DNA of 64,000 nt from Marine Group I thaumarchaeote (GCA_013390745.1 JACASX010000001.1:1-64000); one strand, 5' to 3'; counted from the first letter of the stretch, positions 28,915 through 52,573 are shown. The notes: generated by a model from the sequence alone, not told the origin. Translations and numbers: made by a program.

Positions 28915-28980
28915 TCATCTTAAGAATTGTGGATATTCAGGAATAAACCATAGTCCGAGTTTAACTAACGATAAGGCCAA
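28915..28980 (-). CDS. Short member of the WFIPEYPQFLR peptide family (possible fragment)
   Basis: 21 codons from a TTG, ending GLWFIPEYPQFLR with stop TGA. The last 13 residues match the intact 56-residue gene at 35296-35466. The same bases hold a TATA-like TTCTTAAGATGA that sits before the basic-peptide gene at 28893. It may be a remnant kept for its promoter. Confidence 0.35.
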   Translation of the reverse strand: MALSLVKLGLWFIPEYPQFLR

Positions 28981-29003
28981 CGCCGCACCGGTTTTTATCT
29001 AGT

Positions 29004-29153
29004 TTATTTTATTTCCTCAAAAGCATGTAGGTAACTATTGGTGTTTGTTTTGAGTTGGTCTTTTATGTAAGAATCTGAAAAACCATGTACTTTCTTAATA
29101 TGTTCTATAACATCATTACAAGTTTTATTGCAAGTTTTACACAAGAACTTCAT
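29004..29153 (-). CDS. C2H2-like zinc-finger miniprotein (paralogue of 32061-32210)
   Basis: 49 residues. C5-x2-C8 with H18 and H23 (CKTCNKTCNDVIEHIKKVH) is one zinc finger with a helical tail. About half the residues match the gene at 32061-32210, and 22 bases upstream of the two starts are also identical (29160-29181 and 32217-32238), so promoter and gene were duplicated together. DNA, RNA or protein binding is possible. Confidence 0.6.
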   Translation of the reverse strand: MKFLCKTCNKTCNDVIEHIKKVHGFSDSYIKDQLKTNTNSYLHAFEEIK

Positions 29154-29235
29154 ACCTAGTACGAAATATCACATTATACATATTGATCTACTTTCATCTT
29201 AAAAATTGTGGACATTCAGGAATAAACAACTAGCA

Positions 29236-29260
29236 AAGTCGATTAGAAAAGAATCGAGTT
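29236..29260. terminator. Recurrent hairpin, copy 1
   Basis: TCGATT-AGAAAAG-AATCGA forms a 6-base-pair stem with a 7-base loop. It lies just after the stop of the minus-strand gene 29264-29473. The same hairpin recurs at 30197-30221 and, with a longer perfect stem, at 55176-55200. Position after stop codons suggests a terminator; a small-RNA role is also possible. Confidence 0.5.
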
Positions 29261-29263
29261 AAG

Positions 29264-29473
29264 TTAAGGTTTTTCTTTTGGGATTAACTCGTCTCTTATT
29301 GTTTGTAGTGTCATGATTGTTCTAGTAATAGATTTATCAAATTCATAATTATATTCATTAATGTCTAATCCATGATGTTTGCGTCTTTGTTCCTTTAGAT
29401 ATGCAAGTTCTTTGTCTATCATGTGACAGCACTTTCTTTTCACTATTTGGTCTTTATTTAATTTCTCAATCAT
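29264..29473 (-). CDS. Hypothetical small helical protein
   Basis: 69 residues, charged and helical, with two cysteines and two histidines near the start (KCCHMIDKELAYLKEQRRKHH) that could bind metal. Its ATG overlaps the end of the upstream CxxC peptide gene by 8 bases, so the two are coupled. Function unknown. Confidence 0.5.
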   Translation of the reverse strand: MIEKLNKDQIVKRKCCHMIDKELAYLKEQRRKHHGLDINEYNYEFDKSITRTIMTLQTIRDELIPKEKP

Positions 29474-29561
29474 TTGATTTATCAGTCATATCGTCTTTAT
29501 CGCCTTTATCGTCTTTTTTCGTAAACCATTTTTTAATCGCATTACAAATTCCACATTCCAT
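29466..29561 (-). CDS. 31-residue CxxC peptide
   Basis: Starts MECGICNAIKKWFTKK and ends in an Asp/Lys stretch. CGIC could be a half zinc site. It overlaps the next gene. The region before its ATG (29559-29597) is repeated with one mismatch before the gene at 34435. Confidence 0.4.
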   Translation of the reverse strand: MECGICNAIKKWFTKKDDKGDKDDMTDKSND

Positions 29562-29597
29562 AAAAAAGAAAAGGTCAGGAAGTACAAAAGTCAGCTA
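29559..29597. repeat. 39-base repeat shared with 34433-34471
   Basis: One mismatch between the copies. In both, the repeat reads on the minus strand from the 3' side of one small gene into the ATG of the next (CCTGACCTTTTC just before the start). A third, shorter relative lies before 34729. It is probably a 5' leader or promoter spread by duplication. Confidence 0.7.
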
Positions 29598-29623
29598 ATG
29601 CCTGAAAACTCGTTTTTGTGTAT

Positions 29624-29746
29624 TCATCTTCTTCTTTCTTTATAGTATTTCCGACGAGTGAAAGTACATCTCGGTTCATGTTTTTTTAATACTTCTTCTG
29701 ATTCAAATTCCCTTCCACAAATTCTGCACGAAATTAGCTGACCCAT
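29624..29746 (-). CDS. Zinc-finger miniprotein (CxxC...H...C type)
   Basis: 40 residues. CRICGREF, then KKHEPRC, gives a C-x2-C, H, C ligand set, followed by a very basic tail (RRKYYKERRR). This is a plausible single-finger nucleic-acid binder. The sequence upstream (29751-29790) is repeated before 30511. Confidence 0.5.
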   Translation of the reverse strand: MGQLISCRICGREFESEEVLKKHEPRCTFTRRKYYKERRR

Positions 29747-29750
29747 ATCC

Positions 29751-29790
29751 ACATGTAATCTAATTAACTAAATTTAACAATTGATAAGAA
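29751..29790. repeat. 40-base repeat shared with 30508-30547
   Basis: One mismatch in 40 bases. On the minus strand it carries GTTAAATTTAG about 25 bases before an ATG, so it looks like a duplicated promoter. At 30511 that ATG opens a WFIPEYPQFLR-family gene; at 29753 the ATG gives only a 6-codon frame and the zinc-finger start lies 9 bases further on. Confidence 0.7.
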
Positions 29791-29824
29791 GGACTTTAAC
29801 CAATTCCATAATTAAATTATTTGC
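29783..29824. repeat. 42-base direct repeat, copy 2
   Basis: Identical to 28746-28787. It covers the stop and 3' flank of the basic-peptide gene at 29817-29909. Confidence 0.8.
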
Positions 29825-29909
29825 GATTAGTACCTACTCTACTTCTTTTACTCTTACTTTTTTTGGATCTTCTTTCTTTTTCTTTTTGTACTTTTGTTGC
29901 CACAAACAT
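29817..29909 (-). CDS. Basic 30-residue peptide
   Basis: Starts MFVATKVQKEKERRSKKSK and ends RSRVGTNRK. A TATA-like TTTTTAAGATAA lies about 25 bases upstream. Its 3' half is nearly identical in DNA to the plus-strand gene at 52723-52812 (shared ending SKRSRVGTNR), and its 5' half resembles 28780-28893, so the family has recombined. Confidence 0.5.
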   Translation of the reverse strand: MFVATKVQKEKERRSKKSKSKRSRVGTNRK

Positions 29910-29923
29910 TATGAAATAACACT

Positions 29924-29938
29924 TTATCTTAAAAATTG
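29924..29938 (-). promoter_or_regulatory. Recurrent TATA element before the basic-peptide gene
   Basis: CAATTTTTAAGATAA on the minus strand, 14 bases before the ATG at 29909. The identical 15-base string recurs at 30155-30169, 31074-31088, 35006-35020 and 35296-35310. Here it stands without the WFIPEYP codons, so it is kept as a promoter in its own right. Confidence 0.6.
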
Positions 29939-29979
29939 CTGAAAACTCATTTTTAATTCAGTTGACAGTTTCATACACT

Positions 29980-30135
29980 TTAAGCATATTTGCCAGTGCC
30001 AACCCTTTGCTTTTTTTGTGGTTTTGAATGTGCTTTAACCATATGTTTCACCGTTCTTTCAGGATCAGAAAATTTCATACCACATATTTTACACACTAAA
30101 CTTGTAGTAGTTTTAGATTTTCCAAACAAACCCAT
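29980..30135 (-). CDS. C2H2 zinc-finger miniprotein
   Basis: 51 residues. CKICGMKF, then HMVKAH, forms a classical C-x2-C ... H-x4-H finger; N- and C-termini are basic. Promoter and leader (30136-30169, with TTTTTAAGATAA) are almost identical to those of the gene at 34750-34986. Likely a nucleic-acid-binding finger; target unknown. Confidence 0.6.
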   Translation of the reverse strand: MGLFGKSKTTTSLVCKICGMKFSDPERTVKHMVKAHSKPQKKQRVGTGKYA

Positions 30136-30196
30136 AATATTCTAAGATTATACCTTATCTTAAAAATTGTGGACATTCAGGAATAAACAACTAGCA

Positions 30197-30221
30197 AAGT
30201 CGATTAGAAAAGAATCGAGTT
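30197..30221. terminator. Recurrent hairpin, copy 2
   Basis: Same sequence as 29236-29260, again just after the stop of a minus-strand gene (30231-30365) and just before a copy of the recurrent promoter element. Confidence 0.5.
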
Positions 30222-30230
30222 GAACATATT

Positions 30231-30365
30231 TTACCAATAACCATCAAAATAAGTTAACAATTTTTTGAGTGCTTCTAACTGTGTGGATTTAGCTGAATCA
30301 TTCTCATTATCAATCAAATTATCAAGAAGTCGTAAAGCTTCTTTGAATTTTTCTTCATTTGTCAT
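30231..30365 (-). CDS. Hypothetical 44-residue helical protein
   Basis: Starts MTNEEKFKEALRLLDNLID, an amphipathic helix, and ends TYFDGYW. Its promoter is the TTTTTAAGATAG element embedded in the 3' end of the upstream WFIPEYPQFLR gene (stop at 30398). Function unknown. Confidence 0.5.
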   Translation of the reverse strand: MTNEEKFKEALRLLDNLIDNENDSAKSTQLEALKKLLTYFDGYW

Positions 30366-30397
30366 AACTAAATCCTACTAGGTTTTGTATTTCAAAC

Positions 30398-30511
30398 CTA
30401 TCTTAAAAATTGTGGATATTCAGGGATAAACCAATCCAAGACACTAACCAAACATTCCATCATTTGTGGTGATGGTTCACCTAACGTTATTTCACGACTT
30501 ATGAAGAACAT
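30398..30511 (-). CDS. 37-residue member of the WFIPEYPQFLR family
   Basis: The middle reads GEPSPQMMECLV and the end LDWFIPEYPQFLR. It is a homologue of the plus-strand gene 52457-52573, with which it shares about 120 bases of sequence including flank. The final codons contain the TATA-like element that serves the next gene (30231-30365). Wobble-position differences between copies keep the peptide unchanged, which argues that it is translated. Function unknown. Confidence 0.6.
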   Translation of the reverse strand: MFFISREITLGEPSPQMMECLVSVLDWFIPEYPQFLR

Positions 30512-30549
30512 GTAATCTAATTAACTAAATTTAACAATCGATAAGAAAC

Positions 30550-30584
30550 GATTGAATGAGATAGTACCAGTATCTCACCCAATC
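30550..30584. ncRNA. Strong hairpin, possible terminator or small RNA
   Basis: GATTG (30550-30554) pairs with CAATC (30580-30584) and TGAGATA (30557-30563) with TATCTCA (30571-30577), around a 7-base loop GTACCAG; the internal AA/CC is unpaired. It lies between the small membrane-peptide gene and the WFIPEYPQFLR gene, so it may end the former's transcript. Confidence 0.4.
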
Positions 30585-30602
30585 TTTTGGTTTGGTACAA
30601 TA

Positions 30603-30683
30603 TTAGCTCAAAAATCTAACAATAAAAATTATTCCAACAATGCCAAAACCAATCAAGTAGAGCTTATTTCTTCGCGTTATCAT
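30603..30683 (-). CDS. 26-residue membrane peptide
   Basis: A basic start (MITRRNKLY) is followed by one hydrophobic helix (LIGFGIVGIIFIV). A TATA-like stretch (TATAGATAATATAAAC on the minus strand) precedes it. Function unknown. Confidence 0.4.
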   Translation of the reverse strand: MITRRNKLYLIGFGIVGIIFIVRFLS

Positions 30684-30718
30684 GATCGAGCTTAGGTGTT
30701 TATATTATCTATAAGTCG

Positions 30719-30871
30719 TTATTCCATATTTTTTCTCATTTCTGGTTTTAGATTACCTTTTCTCTTTTCATTCTTTGGATGACATGTACAAAAACAGTTG
30801 TCATGCCTAAAGTCGTGATTATTTCTGTATGTACATTCCTTAGTATGTATCATATCTGATTTATCAGACAT
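30719..30871 (-). CDS. 50-residue Cys/His-rich miniprotein
   Basis: Contains ECTYRNNHDF and then HDNCFCTCHP, enough Cys and His for one or two metal sites, with a basic C-terminus. Third gene of a compact three-gene set; it overlaps the upstream membrane-peptide gene by 8 bases. Confidence 0.45.
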   Translation of the reverse strand: MSDKSDMIHTKECTYRNNHDFRHDNCFCTCHPKNEKRKGNLKPEMRKNME

Positions 30872-30965
30872 GATGAAAAAACAGATGAATGATTATATGA
30901 GCAATAATCGTTAATGCGATAATAGAACCAATGAGTTTTTTTTTACCAAGTTTATCACAAATCAT
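30864..30965 (-). CDS. 33-residue membrane peptide
   Basis: A basic head (MICDKLGKKK) precedes a hydrophobic helix (LIGSIIALTIIAHIIIHLFF) ending in histidines. Second gene of the set starting at 31053; one base separates it from the upstream stop. Confidence 0.42.
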   Translation of the reverse strand: MICDKLGKKKLIGSIIALTIIAHIIIHLFFHHV

Positions 30966-30966
30966 G

Positions 30967-31053
30967 TTAGATTCCAAACACATACAAAATAATAGCCAGT
31001 ATTGGTAAGCCTATCAGAATCCAAACACCCTTTCTCTTAAATGGGATTTTCAT
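30967..31053 (-). CDS. 28-residue membrane peptide
   Basis: MKIPFKRKG then one helix (VWILIGLPILAIILYVFGI). First gene of a three-gene minus-strand set; the recurrent TATA element at 31074-31088 lies 20 bases upstream, at leaderless-promoter spacing. Function unknown. Confidence 0.42.
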   Translation of the reverse strand: MKIPFKRKGVWILIGLPILAIILYVFGI

Positions 31054-31073
31054 ACAATTTTATTCAGTATACT

Positions 31074-31088
31074 TTATCTTAAAAATTG
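31074..31088 (-). promoter_or_regulatory. Recurrent TATA element before the membrane-peptide set
   Basis: Same CAATTTTTAAGATAA as at 29924-29938, without in-frame WFIPEYP codons. The 200 bases upstream to 31291 hold only short inverted repeats (for example GTTCTAACAGAAC) and no convincing gene. Confidence 0.55.
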
Positions 31089-31291
31089 TGCTTCATAATT
31101 CGGCGTTCTAACAGAACGAACTCATCATACCCTTAGGAAGTCAGAGAGAACCACTTCTATAATCATCAGCAGTATACTGAAACATTCTCATCTTAAAAAA
31201 ATAACATATATTATTTTTAGAGTGTCATAACTAAGCTTACTACCCAAGCTTGCATGATATAATACAGACAAAAAGAACCAGGTTAAGGTAT

Positions 31292-31864
31292 TTACTTGAA
31301 CTTTTTCTTGACAAACTTCTTCAGACCCATTCTCTTCAGATCCTGAGATTCCTTGAGAACTGATTTATGTTGCTTTTCCTTGTGAGATTTTAACATCTTT
31401 CTGATATTGTTGGATTCGTTAGCTAGGATTTTCAGGGCATAAATTCCAGCATTTGTTGCCTTGTTTACACCTACAGTTACTACTGCAGACCCAGCAGTAG
31501 TTGGCATCTCAGAGATTGAGAGCAAAGAATCAAGACCTCCAAACGCAGAAATGTTATGCTTACCAGATTTTTTTTGCAACTTGTCATTGTAAACCAATAT
31601 TGGAACACCAATCACTGGCAGAATGGTATGTGATGCCATCATTCCTGGTAGGTGTGCCGCACCTCCAGCGCCAGCAATTATTACTTTGAATCCATTTTTT
31701 TCTGCATGTTTTGCATATTCTTCCAATCTTGTTGGGGTTCTGTGCGCCGATATTATTTGGTCCTCATGTGGGACATCAAACTCATCAAGAATTTCAGCTG
31801 CATCATGCATTATTCTACTGTCAGAACTGGAACCCATTATGATTCCAACAAGTGGCTTTTTCAT
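31292..31864 (-). CDS. purE: PurE, N5-CAIR mutase (class I)
   Basis: 190 residues. MGSSSDSRIM is the phosphate-binding loop, and SAHRTP carries the catalytic His of class I PurE. It converts N5-CAIR to CAIR in purine synthesis, using the product of PurK, encoded divergently at 32.3 kb. The last 35 residues are a Lys-rich tail beyond the normal fold. Two miniprotein genes on the same strand lie between purE and purK. Confidence 0.95.
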   Translation of the reverse strand: MKKPLVGIIMGSSSDSRIMHDAAEILDEFDVPHEDQIISAHRTPTRLEEYAKHAEKNGFKVIIAGAGGAAHLPGMMASHTILPVIGVPILVYNDKLQKKSGKHNISAFGGLDSLLSISEMPTTAGSAVVTVGVNKATNAGIYALKILANESNNIRKMLKSHKEKQHKSVLKESQDLKRMGLKKFVKKKFK

Positions 31865-31983
31865 AATTTTTATAGACCTGAAGATGTTTTTAATGTAGCG
31901 AACATCGGTGTCTAGCTTGATAAAGCGAGCTACTCGGTAGGAAGTAGTTATTTGAGTATTCTGAATATATATAAAAAATATAT

Positions 31984-32064
31984 TTATTTTTGTTTATTCT
32001 CTTTACGTCTTTTCTGTTTAGACGAACCACCAGCATTATGTCCATGGGGTTTTTTCTTAGTCAT
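31984..32064 (-). CDS. 26-residue basic peptide
   Basis: Starts MTKKKPHGHNAGGSSKQKRR. Its ATG overlaps the stop of the zinc-finger gene 32061-32210 (ATGA), so translation is coupled. The composition is Lys/Arg-rich as in the other basic peptides of the island, but it is not an obvious homologue. Confidence 0.42.
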   Translation of the reverse strand: MTKKKPHGHNAGGSSKQKRRKENKQK

Positions 32065-32210
32065 TTTATTATCTCGAAAGCATTTTTGTAGGCATCTGGT
32101 TTATTTTTGAGATCTTGTTTTATGTGAGCTTCTGAAAAGCCATGTACTTTTCTAATATGTTCTGGAATATCATTACAAGGTTTTTTACAAGTTTTACACA
32201 TGTATTTCAT
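32061..32210 (-). CDS. C2H2-like zinc-finger miniprotein (paralogue of 29004-29153)
   Basis: 49 residues. CKTCKKPCNDIPEHIRKVHGF aligns with 29004-29153 without gaps, with the zinc ligands conserved. The upstream 22 bases are identical in both copies. First gene of a pair with the overlapping basic peptide, in the gap between purE and purK. Confidence 0.6.
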   Translation of the reverse strand: MKYMCKTCKKPCNDIPEHIRKVHGFSEAHIKQDLKNKPDAYKNAFEIIK

Positions 32211-32308
32211 ATCTAATACGAAATATCACATTATACATACCCTTCTCATTGTTTAGTCGTATTCATTGTGTCGCACTGGTTTTTATCTAGTTTATTTTTA
32301 GGGTGATT

Positions 32309-33451
32309 ATGGCAAAAAGGCTTGGCATCATAGGAGGAGGTCAGCTTGGCATGATGATAACGGAGGCTGCCAAAAATCTAAGTGAGTATATATCAGAAAT
32401 CATAGTGCTTGACCCAACAGAGAACTGTCCAGCTGCTCAGGCTGGAGCAAAACAAATTGTTGGTGACTTTAAGGATGAACTTGCAATCCTAAAACTTGCA
32501 GAACAATCTGACATCATTACATACGAGATAGAATCTGGTAATACAGATGTGCTAAGCAAACTAAAGGCAAAGATTGAACCATCACCATCCACCCTAGGCA
32601 TAATCCAAGACAAATTTTTACAAAAAACTTTCCTTTCAGAGAATGAACTTCCTGTTTCACAATTTTATGAGATTACATCCTTGGGCGACCTACATGAAAA
32701 AATTAAGGAACTTGGGCTTCCTGTTTTACTAAAGTCAAGGAGGGATGCATATGATGGAAGGGGAAATTTCAAGATTACTTCCTCGGATGAGATTGAAAAG
32801 GCATACAATCACTTTGACGGAAAAAGCCTGATGGTTGAAAAATTTGTCAATTTTAAGATGGAAGTATCTGTAATAGCAGCCAGAAACACAAAGGGTAAGA
32901 TTACTGGATATCCATTGGTGGAAAACATTCATGAAAATAATATTTTAAAGATGACTATTGCACCTGCGCGTGTATCCATTGATGTGATAAAGAACGCTGG
33001 CGAGATTGCAAAAAAGACGATGGAAGTCTTGAAAGGTGCTGGTGTTTTTGGAATTGAGATGTTTATTGATCAAGATGACAAGATTCTCATAAATGAGATA
33101 GCGCCTAGAGTACACAATTCTGGTCATCATACATTGCAGTCATCTAAGACCTCACAGTTTGAACAGCATCTTCGTGCAATACTTGGGTTAGAGCTTGGGA
33201 GCACTGATTTGGTTCATAGAACAGTCATGTGCAATATCTTGGGACCGTATGGGTTTGAAGGAAAATACAATCCGATTAAGTTAGAAAAGGATGGTGTATA
33301 TCTGAAGATGTATAGAAAAGATGTATCAAAGCCACAACGTAAGCTTGGCCACTTTAACGTTGTAGATTTGAATGACTCTAAGGATGTATCCGAATTACTC
33401 GAAACTGCTGACGAGATAAAAAATTCAATTTCAATCAATCAACTAGATTAG
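32309..33451 (+). CDS. purK: PurK, N5-CAIR synthase (ATP-grasp)
   Basis: About 380 residues. GIIGGGQLGMMI is the N-terminal nucleotide fold, KSRRDAYDGRGNF the ATP-grasp loop, and NEIAPRVHNSGHHT the conserved metal-site segment. It makes N5-CAIR from AIR, bicarbonate and ATP. A TATA-like TTTTTATCTAG about 24 bases before the ATG at 32309 favours that start over the GTG at 32303. The promoter sequence (32273-32298) has a near-identical copy at 28985-29010. Confidence 0.95.
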   Translation: MAKRLGIIGGGQLGMMITEAAKNLSEYISEIIVLDPTENCPAAQAGAKQIVGDFKDELAILKLAEQSDIITYEIESGNTDVLSKLKAKIEPSPSTLGIIQDKFLQKTFLSENELPVSQFYEITSLGDLHEKIKELGLPVLLKSRRDAYDGRGNFKITSSDEIEKAYNHFDGKSLMVEKFVNFKMEVSVIAARNTKGKITGYPLVENIHENNILKMTIAPARVSIDVIKNAGEIAKKTMEVLKGAGVFGIEMFIDQDDKILINEIAPRVHNSGHHTLQSSKTSQFEQHLRAILGLELGSTDLVHRTVMCNILGPYGFEGKYNPIKLEKDGVYLKMYRKDVSKPQRKLGHFNVVDLNDSKDVSELLETADEIKNSISINQLD

Positions 33452-33480
33452 TTTATTAATTCTGAAACTTCCAGCTAAGC

Positions 33481-33873
33481 ATGGCAAAAGCTGCAGCATT
33501 AGTAATCACTGGCATTTCAATCGCATTGCTAGTAATTTACGGTGCAGATGCCGCTGTTGGCATGGACAATCCTGACAAGCAGGGCTTTCTAGATATGGAC
33601 CACATGACAAGAGGGCTTGGTCTTGGTGGTCCAGCAATGATTTTGCCATTAATCGCATATTTTATTTCACGAAATGATTCATCCAAGGGGCTTGGTGGAA
33701 TGATACTAGTTACGGGCATCCTAATCATAATTGGCGCTGTAACAGTGATTGGTATGGCTGATCTTTCTGAAGTAGAAGAAGCAACTAGAAACCCACTCAT
33801 GGAGAATGCTTCGTTACTGGTAGTTGGTGGAATTCAAATGGGTCTTGGCGTACTAAAGATAAAAAAATCCTAG
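33481..33873 (+). CDS. Hypothetical multi-pass membrane protein
   Basis: 130 residues with about four hydrophobic segments (near 5-25, 52-65, 75-95 and 110-125) and small loops. It follows purK by 29 bases and may share its transcript. No family recognised. Confidence 0.65.
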   Translation: MAKAAALVITGISIALLVIYGADAAVGMDNPDKQGFLDMDHMTRGLGLGGPAMILPLIAYFISRNDSSKGLGGMILVTGILIIIGAVTVIGMADLSEVEEATRNPLMENASLLVVGGIQMGLGVLKIKKS

Positions 33874-33878
33874 ACGAT

Positions 33879-33998
33879 ATGCCAGTTTGTACAAAATGTA
33901 AAAACAAAGTTCCTAAAGTGTATAATTGTGAACATACGGATGAGCAGGATTATTGTACAGATTGCTATACAGAACTACATTACTATTTGACTGAATAA
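33879..33998 (+). CDS. 39-residue zinc-ribbon miniprotein
   Basis: Starts MPVCTKCKNKVPK. CTKC and a second CTDC pair, with a further C and H between, fit a zinc ribbon or B-box-like site. It starts 5 bases after the upstream membrane-protein gene, on the same strand. Confidence 0.5.
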   Translation: MPVCTKCKNKVPKVYNCEHTDEQDYCTDCYTELHYYLTE

Positions 33999-34050
33999 AA
34001 CAGTAATAGCCTTTTAGCTTAACTCTTTATATTGATTATAACGAGATTGC

Positions 34051-34152
34051 ATGTATTTTATGGGCATATATGATAAACTCTATACAAACTCAATGATTCC
34101 GATTGGCATTATGGTCGTTGCAGTCATAATACTTTTGTTTAATCTAATTTAA
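34051..34152 (+). CDS. 33-residue membrane peptide
   Basis: MYFMGIYDKLYTNSM then one helix (IPIGIMVVAVIILLFNLI). A TATA-like TTTATATTG about 25 bases upstream supports a leaderless start at 34051 or the internal ATG at 34060. Function unknown. Confidence 0.45.
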   Translation: MYFMGIYDKLYTNSMIPIGIMVVAVIILLFNLI

Positions 34153-34186
34153 TACATTTTTTTAGGTGAGGTGGATCTTTCGTAGG

Positions 34187-34212
34187 TCTAGTAGGTCGCA
34201 ACTCCTACTAGA
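34187..34212. terminator. Hairpin after the small membrane gene
   Basis: TCTAGTAGG (34187-34195) and CCTACTAGA (34204-34212) form a perfect 9-base-pair stem with an 8-base loop. It lies between convergent genes (34051-34152 plus, 34265-34435 minus), so a bidirectional terminator is the simplest reading. Confidence 0.5.
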
Positions 34213-34264
34213 ACCCTTACGGATAAGGATATGATATTACAACGTGTTAAAAAACGTTGAAAAA

Positions 34265-34435
34265 TTAAGATAAGGTTTCTTTCAGTTTTTCTAGTAACTG
34301 TTTTTGATTTAGAATGTGTTTGATTGCTAAATTATTCAGGTCAGGATTTTTATCACATTCCTGTAATATTGAACGAGTTAACTCAAGCAAGTCATCAATT
34401 ATTTTCAAAGTATTTTGAATTTTCATTTCAGACAT
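34265..34435 (-). CDS. Hypothetical 56-residue coiled-coil protein
   Basis: Starts MSEMKIQNTLKIIDDLLE and ends LLEKLKETLS. The ending resembles that of the gene at 34750-34986 (LEKIKETLS), so the two may be distant duplicates. Last gene of a three-gene minus-strand run from 34986. Function unknown. Confidence 0.5.
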   Translation of the reverse strand: MSEMKIQNTLKIIDDLLELTRSILQECDKNPDLNNLAIKHILNQKQLLEKLKETLS

Positions 34436-34471
34436 AAAAAAGAAAAGGTCAGGAAGTACAAAAATCAGCTA
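34433..34471. repeat. 39-base repeat shared with 29559-29597
   Basis: Copy of the leader repeat described at 29559-29597, here between the stop of the gene at 34469-34729 and the ATG at 34435. Confidence 0.7.
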
Positions 34472-34729
34472 GGTTTTGACTTCCCAAGTGTCAAAGAAAG
34501 TTTTGCCACATGATTTTTTGATAAAATCCTTCATACATTGATTAACCGACTTCATTGAAATTGACATTTCCCAAGTGTCAAACTGTGTATTGCCACATGA
34601 TTTTTTGATAAAATCCTTCATACATTGATTAATTTGAGCTAGGTCATGTGATAACATTTCCTTATGACAAACAGGGCAAGTTTCTAATTTATCACCATAA
34701 CCATTTGTCATTTTACCAAATCTGCCCAT
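34469..34729 (-). CDS. Zinc-binding protein with an internal 29-residue tandem repeat
   Basis: 86 residues. An N-terminal CPVCHKEMLSH could bind zinc. Then NQCMKDFIKKSCG...FDTWE occurs twice, 29 residues apart. At DNA level this is an 87-base in-frame duplication with 41 identical bases (34505-34545 and 34592-34632), so it is recent. Each repeat carries two cysteines. No family recognised. Confidence 0.55.
   Translation of the reverse strand: MGRFGKMTNGYGDKLETCPVCHKEMLSHDLAQINQCMKDFIKKSCGNTQFDTWEMSISMKSVNQCMKDFIKKSCGKTFFDTWEVKT
34505..34632. repeat. 87-base tandem duplication inside a gene
   Basis: 41 bases are identical at an offset of 87, and a flanking TTCCCAAGTGTCAAA (34481 and 34568) repeats at the same offset. 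87 is a multiple of 3, so the frame is kept. Confidence 0.85.
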
Positions 34730-34749
34730 AAAAAAATAAAAGGTCAGGA

Positions 34750-34986
34750 TTATGATAAGGTTTCTTTGATTTTTTCTAAATCTTCTATTGTCTCTTTTGT
34801 CATAAAGTAGTTATCAGGTTGATCAGAGGTCATATACATATCAAGATTGATTTCGTATTTTTTAATCAATTCGTCAATAAGGTCTGAAGCCTGTTTGAGT
34901 TTTTCCTGTCTTATCATCGAACTTGACAATAATGTGTTAAGATCTTTGAGTTCCTTTTCAATATCTTCTATTGCATTATCATTCAT
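34750..34986 (-). CDS. Hypothetical 78-residue coiled-coil protein
   Basis: Acidic, helical, with a heptad-like first half (IEDIEKELKDLNTLLSSSMI). First gene of the run to 34265. Its upstream sequence with the recurrent TATA element (35006-35020) is nearly identical to that of the zinc-finger gene 29980-30135. Confidence 0.55.
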   Translation of the reverse strand: MNDNAIEDIEKELKDLNTLLSSSMIRQEKLKQASDLIDELIKKYEINLDMYMTSDQPDNYFMTKETIEDLEKIKETLS

Positions 34987-35005
34987 AACATTCTAAGATT
35001 ATACT

Positions 35006-35020
35006 TTATCTTAAAAATTG
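35006..35020 (-). promoter_or_regulatory. Recurrent TATA element before the coiled-coil gene
   Basis: CAATTTTTAAGATAA on the minus strand, 19 bases before the ATG at 34986. It is preceded by in-frame IPEYP codons, but a stop lies just upstream of them, so here the peptide is not made and only the promoter survives. Confidence 0.6.
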
Positions 35021-35038
35021 TGGATATTCAGGAATAAT

Positions 35039-35152
35039 TCAAATCTGAATAAAGTATATGATAGAAACAATAGCAATCACTATCGGTACAACATAATATC
35101 TACGAATTGGATTAGTTTTATCCTTCATTGTGTCGCCACCAAATGTTCCCAT
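35039..35152 (-). CDS. 37-residue membrane peptide
   Basis: A hydrophilic basic head (DKTNPIRRYY) precedes one hydrophobic helix (VVPIVIAIVSIIYFI). It follows another membrane-peptide gene by 3 bases. Function unknown. Confidence 0.42.
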   Translation of the reverse strand: MGTFGGDTMKDKTNPIRRYYVVPIVIAIVSIIYFIQI

Positions 35153-35155
35153 GTC

Positions 35156-35233
35156 TCAAGAAACCATCAAGCAACAAACCATAATTCCAGTACTGATAAC
35201 ACCAGTCAAAAGTAATTTGTGATAATAATCCAT
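35156..35233 (-). CDS. 25-residue membrane peptide
   Basis: MDYYHKLLLTGVISTGIMVC, a single hydrophobic helix. A TATA-like AATTATAAGG on the minus strand lies about 20-25 bases upstream. Probably co-transcribed with 35039-35152. Confidence 0.4.
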   Translation of the reverse strand: MDYYHKLLLTGVISTGIMVCCLMVS

Positions 35234-35295
35234 GACAATAAACCATAATTTTCCTTATAATTACGCTGTCACAGTTCTAGTCACGTCAGGAATTC

Positions 35296-35466
35296 TTATC
35301 TTAAAAATTGTGGATATTCAGGAATAAACCATAATCCAACATCAACTAAACAGAATTTTTCTATATTTTTGAAAATAAACGTGTAAAGATTGAGGGTATT
35401 TCCTGAGGATTTACTTTTATGTTTAAGGAAATCTTCCTTAGTTCTTTTAACATCTAGAATAGACAT
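35296..35466 (-). CDS. 56-residue member of the WFIPEYPQFLR family (longest copy)
   Basis: Opens MSILDVKRTKEDFLKHKS and ends VDVGLWFIPEYPQFLR. The frame is open throughout, and a TATA-like TTTATTAAAAATAC lies about 28 bases before the ATG. It is the longest family member here; CLVDVGLW aligns with MECLVSVLDW of the 30.4-kb copy. The last codons hold the recurrent TATA element. Function unknown. Confidence 0.55.
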   Translation of the reverse strand: MSILDVKRTKEDFLKHKSKSSGNTLNLYTFIFKNIEKFCLVDVGLWFIPEYPQFLR

Positions 35467-35564
35467 GCAGTAAACTCAGTATGTATTTTTAATAAATTGG
35501 TGCCATAACTAAGCTTACAAGTTAAGCTTAAGCCTTTTAATGCAGTTTACAGTTTACTTTTTTT

Positions 35565-36257: not shown

Positions 36258-36263
36258 ACCAAA

Positions 36264-42737: not shown

Positions 42738-42868
42738 TTACATTTACGTGAATTCACCATAAATGTGAAACCTTAAAAGAACCTTTGATTAATTGTGAAC
42801 ATAAGAAAATGTGGTGTATTTTCAATTAATGACTAAGATCTTCGTCATCGGAGTTTGTAATTACTAAA

Positions 42869-45165: not shown

Positions 45166-45303
45166 AATTATTTTCAGAGACTGTCATTTATTTACATACT
45201 GTATGCTTAACGATCCATAATCTATAAGTTAGAAATTATTGGTAATTTTGATTTTTTAGACGTATAATAAAGACCTAAATCCTCATGATTTTTTATTGCA
45301 ACC

Positions 45304-46158
45304 ATGGAACCTGATTCAAAACTACCATCAAATGATAATATACCAAGCTTTTTTTCTAATGACGATAAAAATACTGAAGAATTATCTCATAAAAAAAATG
45401 ATATAACTAATTCAGTTGAATCTACATCAAAAAAATCACAGAGAACATCTAATCGAACTGTTCATTGGCCATCACTTGGAATTGGGGCTGGAATTGCCAT
45501 TGCTTGTATTTTTTGTGGTGTATTATTGGTAAATATGATTAACACAGAATCTACACAAGTTTTAGATGAAATTACAATAAATGAAATTACAACAACAAAA
45601 AAACCTACAATTGCATCATTTTATGACAATGCATCACCAATCTTAGGTGATCTAAATGCGCCGCTTACTATGGTTGAGTTTGGTGACTATCAATGTACAT
45701 TTTGTAAAAAATTTTTCCATGAAACAGAGGAATCTATTATAACAAATTATGTTAAAACTGGAAAAGTGAAGATGCTGTTTAAAGATTTCATAGTGGTTAA
45801 TGAGGATTCTGTAAATGCAGCTAGTGCTGCGCATTGTGCAAATGATCAAGAAATGTTTTGGCAGTATCACTCAACTTTATATAATAATTGGGATGGTGAG
45901 GGAACTGGATGGGCATCTTCTGAACAACTTCATAAGTTTGCATCTACATTAGGTTTAGACATGGATCAATTTTCAGAATGTATGTCTAAATCAAAATGGA
46001 AAGAATTAGTTGATTCAAGCCATGCAGATGGTCGTACATTAGGTGTTGATGCAACACCAACATTTTTTATCATCGATCAAAATAATAAAGTACTAAAAAT
46101 TACTGGTGCACAACGTTATGATGTGTTTCAGGAAGTGTTTGATTCATTACTTGAATGA
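45304..46158 (+). CDS. Membrane-anchored DsbA-like thioredoxin-fold protein
   Basis: 284 residues. A Ser/Lys-rich cytoplasmic head (1-55), one membrane helix (about 57-78), then an external DsbA domain with active site C131-T-F-C134 and the cis-proline loop DATPTFFI. It probably forms or isomerises disulfides in exported proteins, such as copper proteins and S-layer, outside the membrane. Several DsbA paralogues are usual in this group. Confidence 0.9.
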   Translation: MEPDSKLPSNDNIPSFFSNDDKNTEELSHKKNDITNSVESTSKKSQRTSNRTVHWPSLGIGAGIAIACIFCGVLLVNMINTESTQVLDEITINEITTTKKPTIASFYDNASPILGDLNAPLTMVEFGDYQCTFCKKFFHETEESIITNYVKTGKVKMLFKDFIVVNEDSVNAASAAHCANDQEMFWQYHSTLYNNWDGEGTGWASSEQLHKFASTLGLDMDQFSECMSKSKWKELVDSSHADGRTLGVDATPTFFIIDQNNKVLKITGAQRYDVFQEVFDSLLE

Positions 46159-46259
46159 TAGTAATTTTCAGAAAAATTAACATTGATCTAAAAATTTGTT
46201 AATAAGATCTGAAAAAATTAACAGGAAATGTATATATTCCAAGTTCGAAAGGCTAGCTC

Positions 46260-47654
46260 ATGGCAGCAGGTATAGATGATATCGCAATTTACATTCCTAG
46301 ACTTTATCTTGATGCAAGTGATTTTGCTAAAGCAAGAGGTCTAGATCCAGAAAAATTAGAGCGTGGATTAGGAATTGGTCAAATGGCCATTGTTGATACA
46401 AATCAGGATCCAGCATGTCTTGCGGCAAACGCTTGTCTAAGAGTTATGCAAAAAAACAAACTAACGCCTGATGAAATTGGCCGATTGTATGTTGCAACTG
46501 AATCAGCATTTGACGAATCGAAGGCTATGAATTCGTATGTAATAGGAATGTTAGAGCAGGTTTACGGTAAAGATACTTTTGGACACTGCGGTGGAATTGA
46601 ATGTAAATTTGCCTGCGTTAGCGGTTCATATGCATTATATGATAATACTAATTGGATTAGGGCCGGTGAGGCTGAAGGTAAGTATGCACTAGTTGTTGTT
46701 TCAGACATTGCAAAATATGACTTGGGTTCAAGCGGTGAAGTAACTCAGGGTGCAGGTGCTATAGCAATGCTATTGAATGATAATCCTAGATTATTATCAT
46801 TTGATCCTAAAGTTACAGCAACATCAATCAAGAACGAGTATGATTTTTACAGACCATTTGGAAAAGAAACGCCAATTGTACATGGACAATATTCTAACCT
46901 TCTTTATCTAATTCAAGTAAAAAATGCACTAATAGATTATAAAAGGAAAGTGAAAGAAACAGGATTAATCAAACTAAAGGATGGTGAGACCATTCTTGAT
47001 CATATTGATTATCTAAACATGCATCTTCCATACAGTAACATGGGTAAAAAAGCTCTTGCTTATCTTGTTAGACATGAATGGAGAGATTTACCAAGATGGA
47101 AAAAAATTATTGAAGAGATAGGAATGGAAGAGCCAATTCCAAAAGATCCACGTGGAACAATTGAATCAGTACTTCAGGACGCAGATTTTATGACTAAAGA
47201 TCACCAATTTACAAAATTATTTACAAGTACCGAAATATATGCTGAACTTTATGAATCAAAACTTGCTAGCTCCCTAATTGCATCTAAAATGATTGGTAAT
47301 TTGTATACTGCATCATTATATCTTGGATTTAGAAGTAGCTTAGAATTTGAATACCAAAAGGGAGTTGACATGAATGGGAAGCGTGTAGGATTTTGTTCTT
47401 ACGGAAGTGGGGCTAGTGCCATGATCTTTAGTGGTGTAATACAACCTGAATATGAACAAGTTGTAAAAGATATGAACCTTGAAGCAGAACTTGGACCAAG
47501 AACTAAGCTGTCTCTAGATGAATACGAAGAACTTCATGAAAATAAGCGTACATATGAAGAAAATATCCGTTCAGCAAACAAAGAGTTCGTTATAGTTGAT
47601 GTAAAAACATCAGCTGAAAGTAGAGGTGAACGTCATTATGCCTTTGTTGATTAA
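46260..47654 (+). CDS. Hydroxymethylglutaryl-CoA synthase (long form)
   Basis: 464 residues. C119 in ECKFACVSGS is the catalytic cysteine, TESAFDE has the catalytic Glu, and HLPYSNMGKKA the catalytic His. It condenses acetoacetyl-CoA and acetyl-CoA for the mevalonate pathway to archaeal lipids. It is about 110 residues longer than the usual archaeal enzyme (about 350) and nearer the bacterial/eukaryotic size. No DUF35 gene is adjacent; the thiolase-DUF35 pair is at 37.2 kb. Confidence 0.9.
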   Translation: MAAGIDDIAIYIPRLYLDASDFAKARGLDPEKLERGLGIGQMAIVDTNQDPACLAANACLRVMQKNKLTPDEIGRLYVATESAFDESKAMNSYVIGMLEQVYGKDTFGHCGGIECKFACVSGSYALYDNTNWIRAGEAEGKYALVVVSDIAKYDLGSSGEVTQGAGAIAMLLNDNPRLLSFDPKVTATSIKNEYDFYRPFGKETPIVHGQYSNLLYLIQVKNALIDYKRKVKETGLIKLKDGETILDHIDYLNMHLPYSNMGKKALAYLVRHEWRDLPRWKKIIEEIGMEEPIPKDPRGTIESVLQDADFMTKDHQFTKLFTSTEIYAELYESKLASSLIASKMIGNLYTASLYLGFRSSLEFEYQKGVDMNGKRVGFCSYGSGASAMIFSGVIQPEYEQVVKDMNLEAELGPRTKLSLDEYEELHENKRTYEENIRSANKEFVIVDVKTSAESRGERHYAFVD

Positions 47655-47659
47655 ATCTG

Positions 47660-48208
47660 ATGAGTGAAAGTTCACCCATTAAAGATGCATTATACGCAAA
47701 GATAGAGGACGTCGGGCAAGAACAAATACACCAATTATTGTTAAACGGTAAGTTTTCAGAATTATTTGAAAAAATTTACGAACCAGTTATTCAAAGTGTA
47801 CATAATATAGAAGAATATGAAAAACATGGGACATTAGCAGAAAGCCTAACACATTATCTGTTTACAGAGATGTTAATTCCTAGTCAACGAAAAATTACTT
47901 TTAAAAATATAGAACTAGACATGATAATTCCAAATACAGAAGAATTACAAAAAAATAGTCATAATACGATAATGATATTTTTTGTTAAAACATCCAATAT
48001 TGAAGAAATAAAACAAAGAATTCAAGATATAAAGAAAATTCAGAAAGAGGATCTAAACATATGGATTATTTCAAAAGATCATATTGAAATTCCACAATCT
48101 ACATACATAACAGAAAAAGAGTCTTTTGGTAAATTTTTGAAAAATGCTCAAAATTTTATTAAAACAAAGAAGATGAATAAACTAAATATTTTCAAGACCA
48201 AGGTTTGA
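47660..48208 (+). CDS. Hypothetical protein
   Basis: 182 residues, soluble. The region ELDMIIPNTEELQKNSHNTIM followed by an alternating beta/alpha stretch could be a restriction-like or receiver-like fold, but key residues are not clear. It starts 6 bases after HMG-CoA synthase and its 3' end overlaps bioD on the other strand by 27 bases. Confidence 0.6.
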   Translation: MSESSPIKDALYAKIEDVGQEQIHQLLLNGKFSELFEKIYEPVIQSVHNIEEYEKHGTLAESLTHYLFTEMLIPSQRKITFKNIELDMIIPNTEELQKNSHNTIMIFFVKTSNIEEIKQRIQDIKKIQKEDLNIWIISKDHIEIPQSTYITEKESFGKFLKNAQNFIKTKKMNKLNIFKTKV

Positions 48209-48880
48209 CATATCAACAAAATTTGGAAAATTTTCAACATACGATTCAATGGTAAATGAATGATTGTATGGAATTGCACCAAAAACTTTGCGCCCAGTTA
48301 GACCAAAGATTTGATGCTTCAAATTAGTTAACTCATATCCGTCAGAAACATTTTGATTTACCAAAAATCCTTTTAAATTCAAATTTTTTTGTCGTACATG
48401 CTCGTATGTCAACATGAAATGATTTACAGCACCGATTTTAGAACCAGTTACAATGAATGAACTCAATTGTAAATCAGAAATCAGATCAGAAACAAAATAA
48501 TTTTTAGATATAGGAGTCATAATTCCACCGATTCCTTCTACAATTACAACATCATGTATTGAAGCAAGTTGTTTGTATGATTCAATTACCTTGGAGATGT
48601 CAATTTCAAGATTAAGTTGTTTAGATGCATCATATGGAGAAGTAGGAATTTCAAAATAATATGGATTTACAAGATCAACAGGATCTTTTACTCCCGAATA
48701 TTTCATTAAAATTTCAACATCCTTGGATACAGAATCAGGTGTTGCCTTGTAACCAGATGCAAAAGGCTTCATCACACCAACATCTACATCAATATCACGA
48801 AGATGTTTAGATATTGAAGCACTGACACATGTTTTTCCAACATCAGTATCAGTTCCAGTAACAAAAAAAGAATTCATCAT
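48182..48880 (-). CDS. bioD: Dethiobiotin synthetase
   Basis: 232 residues. The P-loop is VTGTDTDVGKTCVSAS, MKPFASG binds substrate, and VEGIGGIMTPI is the second conserved loop. It closes the ureido ring of dethiobiotin with ATP and CO2. It overlaps bioA by 4 bases (ATGA), so bioA-bioD form an operon divergent from bioB-bioF. Confidence 0.93.
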   Translation of the reverse strand: MMNSFFVTGTDTDVGKTCVSASISKHLRDIDVDVGVMKPFASGYKATPDSVSKDVEILMKYSGVKDPVDLVNPYYFEIPTSPYDASKQLNLEIDISKVIESYKQLASIHDVVIVEGIGGIMTPISKNYFVSDLISDLQLSSFIVTGSKIGAVNHFMLTYEHVRQKNLNLKGFLVNQNVSDGYELTNLKHQIFGLTGRKVFGAIPYNHSFTIESYVENFPNFVDMSNLGLENI

Positions 48881-50223
48881 AATTTCCTAGATATTGATTT
48901 GATTGTACATATGGTTCCATCAATTAGAAAGTTAAGATCTTTTTGAGATATCGCTAATGGAGGAACGAGCATTATGGTATTTCCAAGTGTTCGGAAATAG
49001 ATTTGATGTTTTCTACCTTCATCAAATACTAATTTGTTAATGGATGTTTTAGATGAAATAGGTTTGTTTGAGTTTTTGTTTTGAACAAGATCAATTCCCA
49101 TAACCATTCCCTTATGACGAATTTCTCCCACAATATCTAAATTAGAAATATCATTAATTTTATTTTCAAAAACCTTAGATGTTTTTTGAATTTTTTCAAT
49201 TAGATGGTATTTTTCATACAATTCAATATTTTTTAGAGATAATGCAGCAGCTATGGGATTTCCAGTATAGGTATGACCATGAAAAAGATGTTTGAATTCA
49301 GAGAACTTACCAAGAAAAGAATCATTAATTTTCTTCGTGGTTAAAGTTGCAGCAAATGTTTGATATCCCCCAGTAAGCATTTTTCCAAACGAAACAATAT
49401 CAGGAATAGAGTTTTGAGATTGATATTCAACCATAGATCCTAGTCTGCCAAAACCAGTTGCAATTTCATCTAAGACAAATAAAACATCATTTTTTTTGCA
49501 TATCTGAGATATCTTTTTTTGGAAAGTTTTAGGATAAATTATTACACCCCCAGCCATCTGTGCACCACTTTCCATAACAAATGCAGCAATAGAATTATCT
49601 TTTTTTAGTTTATCTTCAATTTTTGATAGACAGTATTCTTCATATTCCTTAGAAGACATTTTTTTGTGAGTTCCAGCAAATATAGTTCTTGGAACAGGAA
49701 ATTGTATAGTTGAAAATAATTTTGAACGGAATTTTGAGAAAAATTCAGGCACATATCCTACAGACATTGCACCAAAAGTATCACCGTGATATCCATTTTC
49801 CAGAGTGGCAATATTTGTTTTTTTATTTTCCCCAACATTATTCCAATATTGCAATGCAATTTTTATAGCAACTTCCATGGCAGTTGATCCATTATCAGAA
49901 AAAAAAACTTGAGTCATGTTTGGAGACAATTTTATTAATTTTTTAGCAAGTGATTCAGAGGGTTCATTTGTAAGATTGAATAATGGTGCATGTTGAAGTT
50001 TTTTTGTTTGCTTAATGATTGCATTAACCAACTCTTTTTTGGAATGCCCCCAAACGTTACACCACATACTTGCAACACCATCAAGTAACCTATTCCCATC
50101 TTCATCAATCAACCACATTCCTTCACCACGAACAATTTTTGGAAATTTGTTCCATTCTGACATCTGTGTATTTGGATGCCACAAATGATTCTGGTTTTTC
50201 ATTACTGCACAAATATTATTCAT
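48877..50223 (-). CDS. bioA: Adenosylmethionine-8-amino-7-oxononanoate transaminase
   Basis: 448 residues, class III PLP aminotransferase. HLWHPNTQM is the BioA-type opening, LDEIATGFGR the PLP-ring segment, and SFGKMLTGGY holds the PLP lysine. It makes DAPA from KAPA. First gene of bioA-bioD; the 70-base gap to bioB holds both promoters. Confidence 0.95.
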   Translation of the reverse strand: MNNICAVMKNQNHLWHPNTQMSEWNKFPKIVRGEGMWLIDEDGNRLLDGVASMWCNVWGHSKKELVNAIIKQTKKLQHAPLFNLTNEPSESLAKKLIKLSPNMTQVFFSDNGSTAMEVAIKIALQYWNNVGENKKTNIATLENGYHGDTFGAMSVGYVPEFFSKFRSKLFSTIQFPVPRTIFAGTHKKMSSKEYEEYCLSKIEDKLKKDNSIAAFVMESGAQMAGGVIIYPKTFQKKISQICKKNDVLFVLDEIATGFGRLGSMVEYQSQNSIPDIVSFGKMLTGGYQTFAATLTTKKINDSFLGKFSEFKHLFHGHTYTGNPIAAALSLKNIELYEKYHLIEKIQKTSKVFENKINDISNLDIVGEIRHKGMVMGIDLVQNKNSNKPISSKTSINKLVFDEGRKHQIYFRTLGNTIMLVPPLAISQKDLNFLIDGTICTIKSISRKL

Positions 50224-50293
50224 TACTAATAATAGTTAACCTCAACAAATATTTTGGTTAACGCTTAATTATGTATCAAAATTAAAAAAATCA

Positions 50294-51274
50294 ATGTCTG
50301 AAAAACGTGAACTGATATTAAAATACCGTAATGATGTTGTGAATGACAAAAAACTAACAAGATCTACTATATCTGAATTATTTAATATTAATAATAAATT
50401 CCTTCTAAATTTATCAGATGCAGCAAACTACATAACAAGACATTTTCATGGTTCAGAAGTTGATATTGAGGAATTAGCAAATATTAAAAAAAATTTTTGT
50501 AGTGAAGATTGTACATTTTGTTCACAATCAGCATTCTTTAATACAAAAATTACTGGATATGAGCTTCCACCACCAGAAGAAATAGTTGAACAGGCACTAA
50601 ATGCAAAAAATGATGGTGCTGGTTCATTTTGTCTTGTTGCTGCATGGAGAGAACCTAGCATACTTGATTTCAAAAAGGTGTGTGTAATTATTGAAGAGAT
50701 TAATAAAAAAGTTGGAATTTCAGTTGAATGTAGTCTTGGGTTTTTAACTGATGAACAAGCTAAAACACTAAAGAAACTTCAAGTAAAACGATATAACCAT
50801 AACCTGGAGACATCACGTAGCAAATTCCCAGAAATTTGTACAACTCATACATATGATGATAGAATAAAAACACTAAAAATTGCCAGAAACGCTGGTTTAG
50901 AACTTTGCACCGGTGGGATAATTGGTATTGGCGAAACTAGAAAACAGCGTGAAGAACTAATTTTTGAAATTTCAGAATTAAAGCCTGAAGAAGTTACTGT
51001 AAATATGTTGGTTCCAATGCCAGGCACACCATTAGAACTTCAGACACAATTAGATATTACAGAGATCTTGAGGGTCTTTAGTACACTAAGGTTTCTTTTA
51101 CCAAAATCAATAATCAAAATTTCTGGCGGCCGTGAAGTAAACCTAAAAGACGATGGGCAAAAATTACTGCTTAGTGGAGCAAATGGAATAATCAGTGCTG
51201 GATATCTAACAATGGGTGGTAATACGATAAAAAAAGACATCAAAATGATTAATGAGATAAATCTTGAAACATAA
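50294..51274 (+). CDS. bioB: Biotin synthase (radical SAM)
   Basis: 326 residues. The radical-SAM cluster motif is C69-x3-C73-x2-C76 (CSEDCTFCSQ). YNHNLETSRSKFPEIC and the GGREVNLKD segment match BioB. It inserts sulfur into dethiobiotin. It overlaps bioF by 11 bases. Confidence 0.95.
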   Translation: MSEKRELILKYRNDVVNDKKLTRSTISELFNINNKFLLNLSDAANYITRHFHGSEVDIEELANIKKNFCSEDCTFCSQSAFFNTKITGYELPPPEEIVEQALNAKNDGAGSFCLVAAWREPSILDFKKVCVIIEEINKKVGISVECSLGFLTDEQAKTLKKLQVKRYNHNLETSRSKFPEICTTHTYDDRIKTLKIARNAGLELCTGGIIGIGETRKQREELIFEISELKPEEVTVNMLVPMPGTPLELQTQLDITEILRVFSTLRFLLPKSIIKISGGREVNLKDDGQKLLLSGANGIISAGYLTMGGNTIKKDIKMINEINLET

Positions 51275-52393
51275 GTTAGAATACATTAATTCTGAATTAA
51301 AAGAAATTAAAAAATATAATCTTTATAGAAAAATGCATGATAGTAAAATTACTGGTGCATACATAACTGTTAATTCAAAAACTCTCATTAACCTATGCTC
51401 AAATGATTATTTAGGAATAGTGCAACCAAAAATTTCAAACAAACAAAACCAATCTAGCTCACGTCTAGTTTCTGGGAATGATAATTCGTTTAGAATTCTT
51501 GAAGAAAAATTGGCAAAGCACAAATCACAGGAAAGTTCATTAATTTTCCCAACTGGATATATGGCAAATCTTGGTGTGATATCATCACTTGTTAGAAAAA
51601 ATGATCTTGTGTTAAGTGATAAACTAAATCATGCAAGCCTCATTGAAGCATGTAAACTAACAAATGCAAAACTATCAATTTTTAAACACAATGATATGAA
51701 TGATCTAACTCATAAAATAAAAATAAAAGCCAAACGAAAATTCATAATTACAGAAGGAATATTTAGCATGGATGGAGATTTTTCCAATCTAAACGAAATT
51801 TCTGAAATTTCTAAAAGAAATAATGCAATAATCATATTAGACGATGCTCATGGTGACTTTGTTATTGGTAATGATGGCAAAGGCACGGCAAATCATTTTG
51901 GTGTTTCGAAAAAATTGATGCCTATATTAGCAGTTTAAGTAAGGGATTAGGATCATTTGGAGGATATGTATCAGCAAAGAAAAACATCATTGAATTATGT
52001 ATTAATAAATCAAAATCGTTTATCTATACGTCTGCATTGCCAAGGCTTCTAATTGATGATGCAACAAAAAGATTTGAATCCAATAGAGAGAAAAATCGAA
52101 AAAAATTATGGAGAAATGTTAAGAAATTTTCAGATGGTTTGAAAAAAATAGGTTTTAATGATAATTCAAATTCGCATATTTTTCCCATTATTATTGGAAA
52201 TGAAAAGATAGCGATGGAATTTGGTAAATATCTTTTTAAAAATGGAATTTTTGCACAGCCAATCAGGTATCCAACTGTTTCACGTAATCATGCAAGAATT
52301 AGAATTTCAATTACTGCCAGGTTAACGGATGAACAGATAGCAAAATCATTGTATGTATTAGAAAATGCAAAAAGTAAATTTCATTTAATATAA
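51264..52393 (+). pseudogene. bioF: 8-amino-7-oxononanoate synthase, split by a frameshift
   Basis: The first part (TTG at 51264 to a stop at 51936-51938) has the KAPA-synthase features CSNDYLG, FPTGYMANLGV and DDAHGDFVIG. The frame breaks at six As (51909-51914). One more A would restore reading into IDAYISSLSKGLGSFGG, which holds the PLP lysine, and on to the stop at 52393. The first part alone lacks that lysine. bioA, bioB and bioD are intact, so this may be a recent mutation, a sequencing error in a homopolymer, or slippage-corrected expression. Confidence 0.85.
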
Positions 52394-52456
52394 TTAACGA
52401 TATTACTGACAATTCGGTCATTTAATCAACTGAATACTACGAATACCAATGAAAAG

Positions 52457-52573
52457 ATGAAATTAATTGTAAATCGTGATGGTTCGTTAGGTGAACCACC
52501 ACCACAACAAATGGAATGTATAGTTGATCTTTGCGATTGGTTTATCCCCGAGTATCCACAATTTTTAAGATAG
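52457..52573 (+). CDS. 38-residue member of the WFIPEYPQFLR family
   Basis: Starts MKLIVNRDGSLGEPPPQQ and ends DLCDWFIPEYPQFLR. It is the closest relative of the minus-strand gene 30398-30511, and the similarity continues through about 40 bases after the stop. Codons for I, P and E in the shared ending differ only at third positions (ATC, CCC, GAG). The final bases include CAATTTTTAAGATAG, a candidate promoter for what follows. First gene of the second island. Confidence 0.6.
   Translation: MKLIVNRDGSLGEPPPQQMECIVDLCDWFIPEYPQFLR

Follow-up and report, generated by a model that had tools for sequence, protein, structure and literature searches.

The window analysed here is a stretch of 64,000 nucleotides from a Marine Group I thaumarchaeote, a marine archaeon that oxidises ammonia (contig C1:1-64000 of a 1.075-Mb genome that is 86% complete). 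Among its genes lie five mini-elements, E1 to E5, and four of them (E1, E2, E4 and E5; 0.76-1.5 kb, integrase-less) hold open frames that end in the peptide WFIPEYPQFLR. E1 (28746-29790) stands downstream of a 402-aa gene at 27534-28742, which we take to encode threonine dehydratase, and is bounded by the core GATAAGAA at 28746-28753 and 29783-29790. E2 (29783-30547) is in tandem with it, using the core at 29783-29790 and a further copy at 30540-30547, and the two have arms in common: on the plus strand, the left arm GGACTTTAACCAATTCCATAATTAAATTA is identical at 28754-28782 (E1) and 29791-29819 (E2), and the right arm TAATCTAATTAACTAAATTTAACAAT lies at 29756-29781 (E1) and 30513-30538 (E2). 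Of the repeat, E3 (30681-31258, core CATGAT) has no more than the promoter-like part, while E4 spans 34008-35539 (core AGCCTTTTA) and E5 52395-53791 (core TAACGA).

Comparison with the syntenic contigs of G090, G107, G052, G153 and G158, most of these genomes being draft assemblies, establishes at the level of sequence that the elements were inserted between host genes and are polymorphic among close relatives. Direct repeats of 6-9 bp (GATAAGAA, CATGAT, AGCCTTTTA, TAACGA) flank the elements, and each is single in the empty sites of G090 and G107, where the cores appear on the syntenic contigs as overlaps of -8, -4 to -6, -9 and -6 bp. At the E1 site, which is also that of E2, G090 and G107 have no insert (blast overlap -8), so that the three copies of GATAAGAA in the window (28746, 29783, 30540) face one in G090. 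The E3 site is empty in G107 and G090, and that of E4 in G090, G107, G153 and G158, with other cargo in G052; at the E5 site G090 has no element (overlap -6), and the same gap is seen in G052, G153 and G158. No integrase was found in E1 to E5, the sole trace being a 39-residue integrase N-terminus in E4, and elsewhere on the contig there is just an integrase fragment. The element arms showed no significance as terminal inverted repeats, and Rfam and tRNA scans gave no matches at the islands.

A sequence-only reading of this DNA had proposed that the frames ending in WFIPEYPQFLR form a family of small peptides under selection, whose last codons contain the next promoter. The four frame ends are real: a degenerate pattern places them at 28919-28950, 30402-30433 and 35300-35331 on the minus strand and at 52538-52569 on the plus strand, and these are exactly the 4 sites in the whole genome, all inside the window (the reversed-pattern control gave 0). 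All three stops are indeed in use (TGA at 28915, TAG at 30398, TAA at 35296 and TAG at 52571). Three further partial tails, which that reading did not list, lie at ~29197-29229, ~30158-30190 and ~35009-35035.

The same end belongs to a much longer protein. When 31 same-genus genomes were searched with a profile, WFIPEYPQFLR turned up in a 306-aa open frame of G153, where the intact product is a 302-aa Rep (C7:10601-11509) with this C-terminus and with HFH and Y-x-LSH-x-G motifs. Of 250 Nitrosopumilaceae genomes, 34 have Rep homologues, and in an alignment of 9 homologues H181-F-H183, Y221-x-LSH-x-G and the zinc-type Cys are invariant, Y221 being the candidate catalytic Tyr. The protein matches the Rep of the haloarchaeal plasmid pSCM201 (tblastn 6e-7, hhalign 2e-11) and SNJ1 RepA (profile alignment, E 9e-8), and on these comparisons the parent gene is classed as an SNJ1/pSCM201-type HUH rolling-circle Rep. 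It shares with SNJ1 RepA and pSCM201 Rep the HUH and Y-x-LSH motifs and a profile alignment over 170-210 columns, but identity is only ~23-26%, and the marine subfamily differs in its short WFIPEYPQFLR tail, which overlaps the next promoter-like box. Pfam and PHROGs assigned no confident family to Rep, a PDB search returned none, and neither a Rep-profile scan of viral contigs nor a phage search gave a match. Two apparent relatives in IMG/VR were rejected, both C-terminal-profile matches being a chance ADWFIPEY within a 1944-aa protein.

In G153, rep is part of a larger element on C7. After a gene that is presumably HMG-CoA synthase come the core AAATTATTA, the left arm, an integrase, a ribbon-helix-helix-like gene, rep and an array of tiny genes, and the right end is off-contig. 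The integrase (8387-9454, 355 aa, upstream of rep) is a tyrosine recombinase whose N-terminal Pfam domain scores under the curated cut-off. Integrase and rep genes are found together at L132, L148, L149, L150, L175, L176 and L177, with six loci beyond that of G153, in this and other genera. At the HMG-CoA synthase site itself, G153 has arm, integrase and rep, and G052 arm and rep tail. The genome of the window (86% complete) yielded C-terminal rep pieces only, and no intact element of this subfamily. Homology to an integrase-bearing element was shown for the left arm of E1 and E2 (23/25 positions shared with the G153 arm), the arm of E5, and the integrase piece and rep tail of E4, but not for E3.

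Compared with this parent, the frames in the window are variably 5'-truncated 3' ends of rep. The E1 tail (28915-28950, minus strand, stop TGA) is WFIPEYPQFLR with upstream codons that are not rep, and the E2 tail (30398-30511, minus strand, stop TAG) covers Rep residues ~266-302. In E4, the final 17 Rep residues (35296-35349, minus strand, stop TAA) are fused in frame to integrase residues 1-39 (35350-35466, minus strand), which a family-wide search identified: they are 44% identical to the same residues of a Phage_integrase protein from G235 and 39% identical to a similar G134 protein. An SSV-type split integrase was considered for E4 and rejected, as what faces the att site is the 5' end of the integrase and not the point at which it is broken. 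The E5 tail (52448-52573, plus strand, stop TAG) joins the element arm at TGAAAAGAT; it starts where arm and rep share these bases, and the alignment of the left arm with that of G153 runs through TGAAAAGAT (0/1000 shuffles). Microhomology at the breakpoint is clear at E5 only. The junctions of arm or integrase to a rep tail, with variable 5' limits, are what internal deletions between int (or an arm) and rep would be expected to leave. The WFIPEYPQFLR ends are thus demonstrably, from these alignments, 3' remnants of an SNJ1/pSCM201-type rep in short integrase-less elements.

A family of genuine small functional peptides, ~20-56 aa long, that share a conserved C-terminus and whose genes overlap at their ends with the promoter that follows, is accordingly not borne out, and we regard it as very unlikely. 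Such a family should have its own conserved start and be conserved over its full length in the absence of a longer parent gene; what was found is a 302-aa parent Rep bearing the same end, and N-termini that are mutually unrelated. The frame starts are of chance or hybrid origin, at 35466 from the integrase N-terminus, at 52457 from an internal rep Met, at 30511 from the element arm and at 28980 without an ATG, which argues against a peptide family, as do the 5' limits, which vary until the copies at 29197, 30158 and 35009 are down to 8-11 codons. E2, E5 and one G052 copy can be aligned over ~30 residues, which speaks for the family. For the frame at 28915, the last ~12 residues do belong with the others, but the preceding codons resemble the intergenic DNA between two genes that we take to be purE and purK, including the host flank TTTTTATCTAGTTTATTTT.

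The pattern of substitution also speaks in favour of a peptide. As had been claimed, changes among the last 11 codons of the four window frames fall at third positions only (4/4 variable columns). Across 9 tails from four genomes, third positions account for 5 of 7 variable columns, with a pooled pS of 0.31 and pN of 0.03, or a pN/pS of ~0.1 over the last 11 codons. Selection on the peptide sequence is therefore visible, but it needs no separate peptide, since the parent Rep accounts for it. For the third-position bias, inheritance from rep is the best reading, and the low pN/pS, measured on tails that are few and short, would be attributable to the parent Rep together with constraint on the TATA-like part.

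That one piece of DNA forms a protein end as well as a promoter-like box is the part of the earlier proposal that stands. In the G153 rep, the QFLR codons and the stop form a TATA-like CAATTTTTAAGATGA, and the ATG of the small gene that follows lies 33 nt downstream. In the genome of the window, AATTTTTAAGATAA has exactly 8 occurrences, of which the small-gene islands of the window hold 7. The element also precedes small ORFs where no peptide is present, as had been noted: in the E2 span, the box CAATTTTTAAGATAA at 29924-29938 (minus strand, no rep tail) lies 14 nt before a 30-codon ORF, whose ATG is 29 nt from the first base of the box, and the box in E3 (31074-31088, minus strand) lies 20 nt before a 28-codon ORF. 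On the same strand, partial rep tails with a promoter-like box stand at 30155-30190 before a 51-codon zinc-finger-like ORF, at 29194-29229 with a 49-codon ORF 55 nt downstream, and at 35006-35037 before a 78-codon ORF. E5 has a box on the plus strand (52695-52709) before a 29-codon ORF. In 5 of 10 window copies, the ATG of an ORF of 25 codons or more falls at a distance of 28-36 nt from the element, compared with 4.6% of island positions (P=4e-5, which is optimistic given that the window copies are related to one another); the other 5 of 10 have no ATG at leaderless distance. Leaderless-type spacing is also seen in further copies in relatives. The spacing agrees with that of archaeal leaderless promoters, in which a TATA-like box lies ~26 nt upstream of the start codon, and it gives structural support to the box at the rep end as a candidate TATA promoter of the next small gene. 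Such an overlap of gene end and promoter can stamp one peptide signature on many unrelated ORFs and so mislead searches for small proteins.

We consider it very probable that the minis with rep tails derive from integrative int-rep plasmids by internal deletion, the promoter overlap keeping the tail. The parents would be integrative plasmids with the order arm, tyrosine integrase, ribbon-helix-helix gene, rep, tiny-gene array and arm, from which internal deletions, at least one of them at a short microhomology, would have taken out int and the greater part of rep. The 3' breakpoints appear to stop short of CAATTTTTAAGATAA, probably since the rep end serves the leaderless small gene that follows as its TATA box, and hence each derivative would retain, if not the rep tail, then the promoter part of it. 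Breakpoints that do not cross the TATA-like box are as predicted by selection for the downstream promoter, judged on about a dozen copies gathered by searches that are blind to copies without the box.

A fixed 3' end with variable 5' ends, on a parent that is a HUH Rep, is also what one-ended rolling-circle (IS91/ISCR-like) transposition would produce, with the tails as 5'-truncated products, the 3' end as the Rep recognition site and the small genes as passengers. We regard this explanation as very unlikely, as the copies are enclosed in larger elements that have arms and 6-9 bp cores at either side, an integrase N-terminus or an element arm lies directly 5' of a tail, and of the insertion boundaries that were resolved not one falls at CAATTTTTAAGATAA.

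Following deletion from int-rep plasmids, the minis may either be re-mobilised in trans, by integrases encoded in full elements with the same arms, or be immobile remnants. The tandem E1 and E2 with identical cores, left arms like those of an integrase-bearing element, and recent polymorphism point to mobility; elements without an integrase, in a genome with no intact integrase of this subfamily, point against it, and neither excision nor a circular form was seen. That the minis were moved in trans by the integrases of full elements is a possibility we hold tentatively, with the balance against it. Because the right arm of E5 and the arms of E3 and E4 are unlike those of E1 and E2, one common integrase would be putative at most.

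Immobile remnants, arising by full insertion of a plasmid and decay in place, or by loss in relatives, with the small genes under domestication and no movement in trans, are a serious possibility that we would place somewhat short of even. They would account for elements that lack an integrase and for the mere integrase fragment elsewhere on the contig, and integrase loss after integration has been described in archaea (PMC8371274). However, the tandem E1 and E2 have an identical core and near-identical arms, and the empty sites in relatives keep one core copy, one of them with a 95% identical flank. Single-core empty sites, together with the matching cores and arms of E1 and E2, indicate recent insertion. 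In its fullest form, mobility in trans would mean that Marine Group I harbours a population of cassette-like, non-autonomous elements that is still active, in which units of ~0.6-1.5 kb are moved by int-rep plasmid integrases and deliver tiny leaderless genes behind a fossil rep-end promoter, the overlap of gene and promoter limiting every deletion; we regard this as possible but less likely than not.

The window elements resemble integron gene cassettes and MITEs as short small-gene units with ends like those of a larger integrase-bearing element, but differ in that their two arms show no significant inverted repetition. Among known archaeal elements, the cryptic integrated elements (CIE) of Thaumarchaeota, NitAQ6f-E2 among them, have att repeats down to 8 bp, an integrase by definition and sizes of 2.6-98 kb, and one thaumarchaeal element with an SNJ1-type rolling-circle Rep has been described (Krupovic et al. 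2019, PMC6563490). The window elements share with CIEs integration with short att repeats, and the int-rep element of G153 fits the CIE class, whereas the window elements are 0.57-1.5 kb (core-to-core spacing) and have no integrase and no intact rep. A review of archaeal mobile elements describes integrases lost once integration has taken place and elements integrated in tandem at one locus (PMC8371274), and in comparison the window has several very small derivatives, at several loci, with scars that keep the rep 3' end. Short 8-bp att sites in Thaumarchaeota, integrase loss and tandem integration are thus already known (PMC6563490, PMC8371274), and in the literature searched no description was found of integrase-less derivatives below 1.6 kb that retain a rep-tail promoter. 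For a streamlined marine archaeon, derivation from mobile elements would explain islands of tiny orphan genes as recent mobile insertions and not old host genes, and their exact insertion sites are provided here.

A further island, at ~31903-32279, lies between the two purine genes presumed to be purE and purK. Its core is imperfect. G107, G158 and G052 have nothing inserted at this site, and in G153 it is taken up by a different insert of 1.0 kb.

The site between the purE-like and purK-like genes, which in the window are separated by an insert at 31903-32279 carrying a zinc-finger-like mini gene, is empty in three of the relatives compared (G107, G158 and G052) and holds different inserts in G153 and G090. 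With this varied occupancy, it is an integration hot spot. Within the mini-element E1, positions 28950-29010 resemble the host flank of the same site, a similarity which suggests that E1 captured host DNA through an imprecise event.

Several repeats are common to more than one element. Identical copies of a 25-nt repeat, GCAAAGTCGATTAGAAAAGAATCGA, which contains an inverted repeat, lie in E1 (29233-29257), in its tandem neighbour E2 (30194-30218) and in a further insertion of ~540 bp at 55077-55610 (55173-55197). This insertion, missing from G052 and G153 with a 4-bp overlap, consists of GACAAGACTAAAATnATGATA repeats that come with hairpins; it lacks a rep tail (the 3' remnant of the rolling-circle rep gene). 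A second repeat, AAAACGAGTTTTCAG, lies close to small-gene ends (29602-29616, 29939-29953 and 53123-53137), and in relatives immediately adjoins the promoter-like box that is also present in the window elements. The sequence TTTTGTACTTCCTGACCTTTTC is repeated on the minus strand directly 5' of small genes (29568-29589 and 34442-34463), and likewise recurs within the small-gene array of G153.

A small ORF of E4 contains a duplication (34481-34632; 87-bp spacing, 92% over 65 nt). Beyond the window, a separate small-gene island on the same contig includes a fragment of an integrase N-terminus as well as a lysine-rich mini gene (locus L166:1104-1358; G000 C1:105104-105358).
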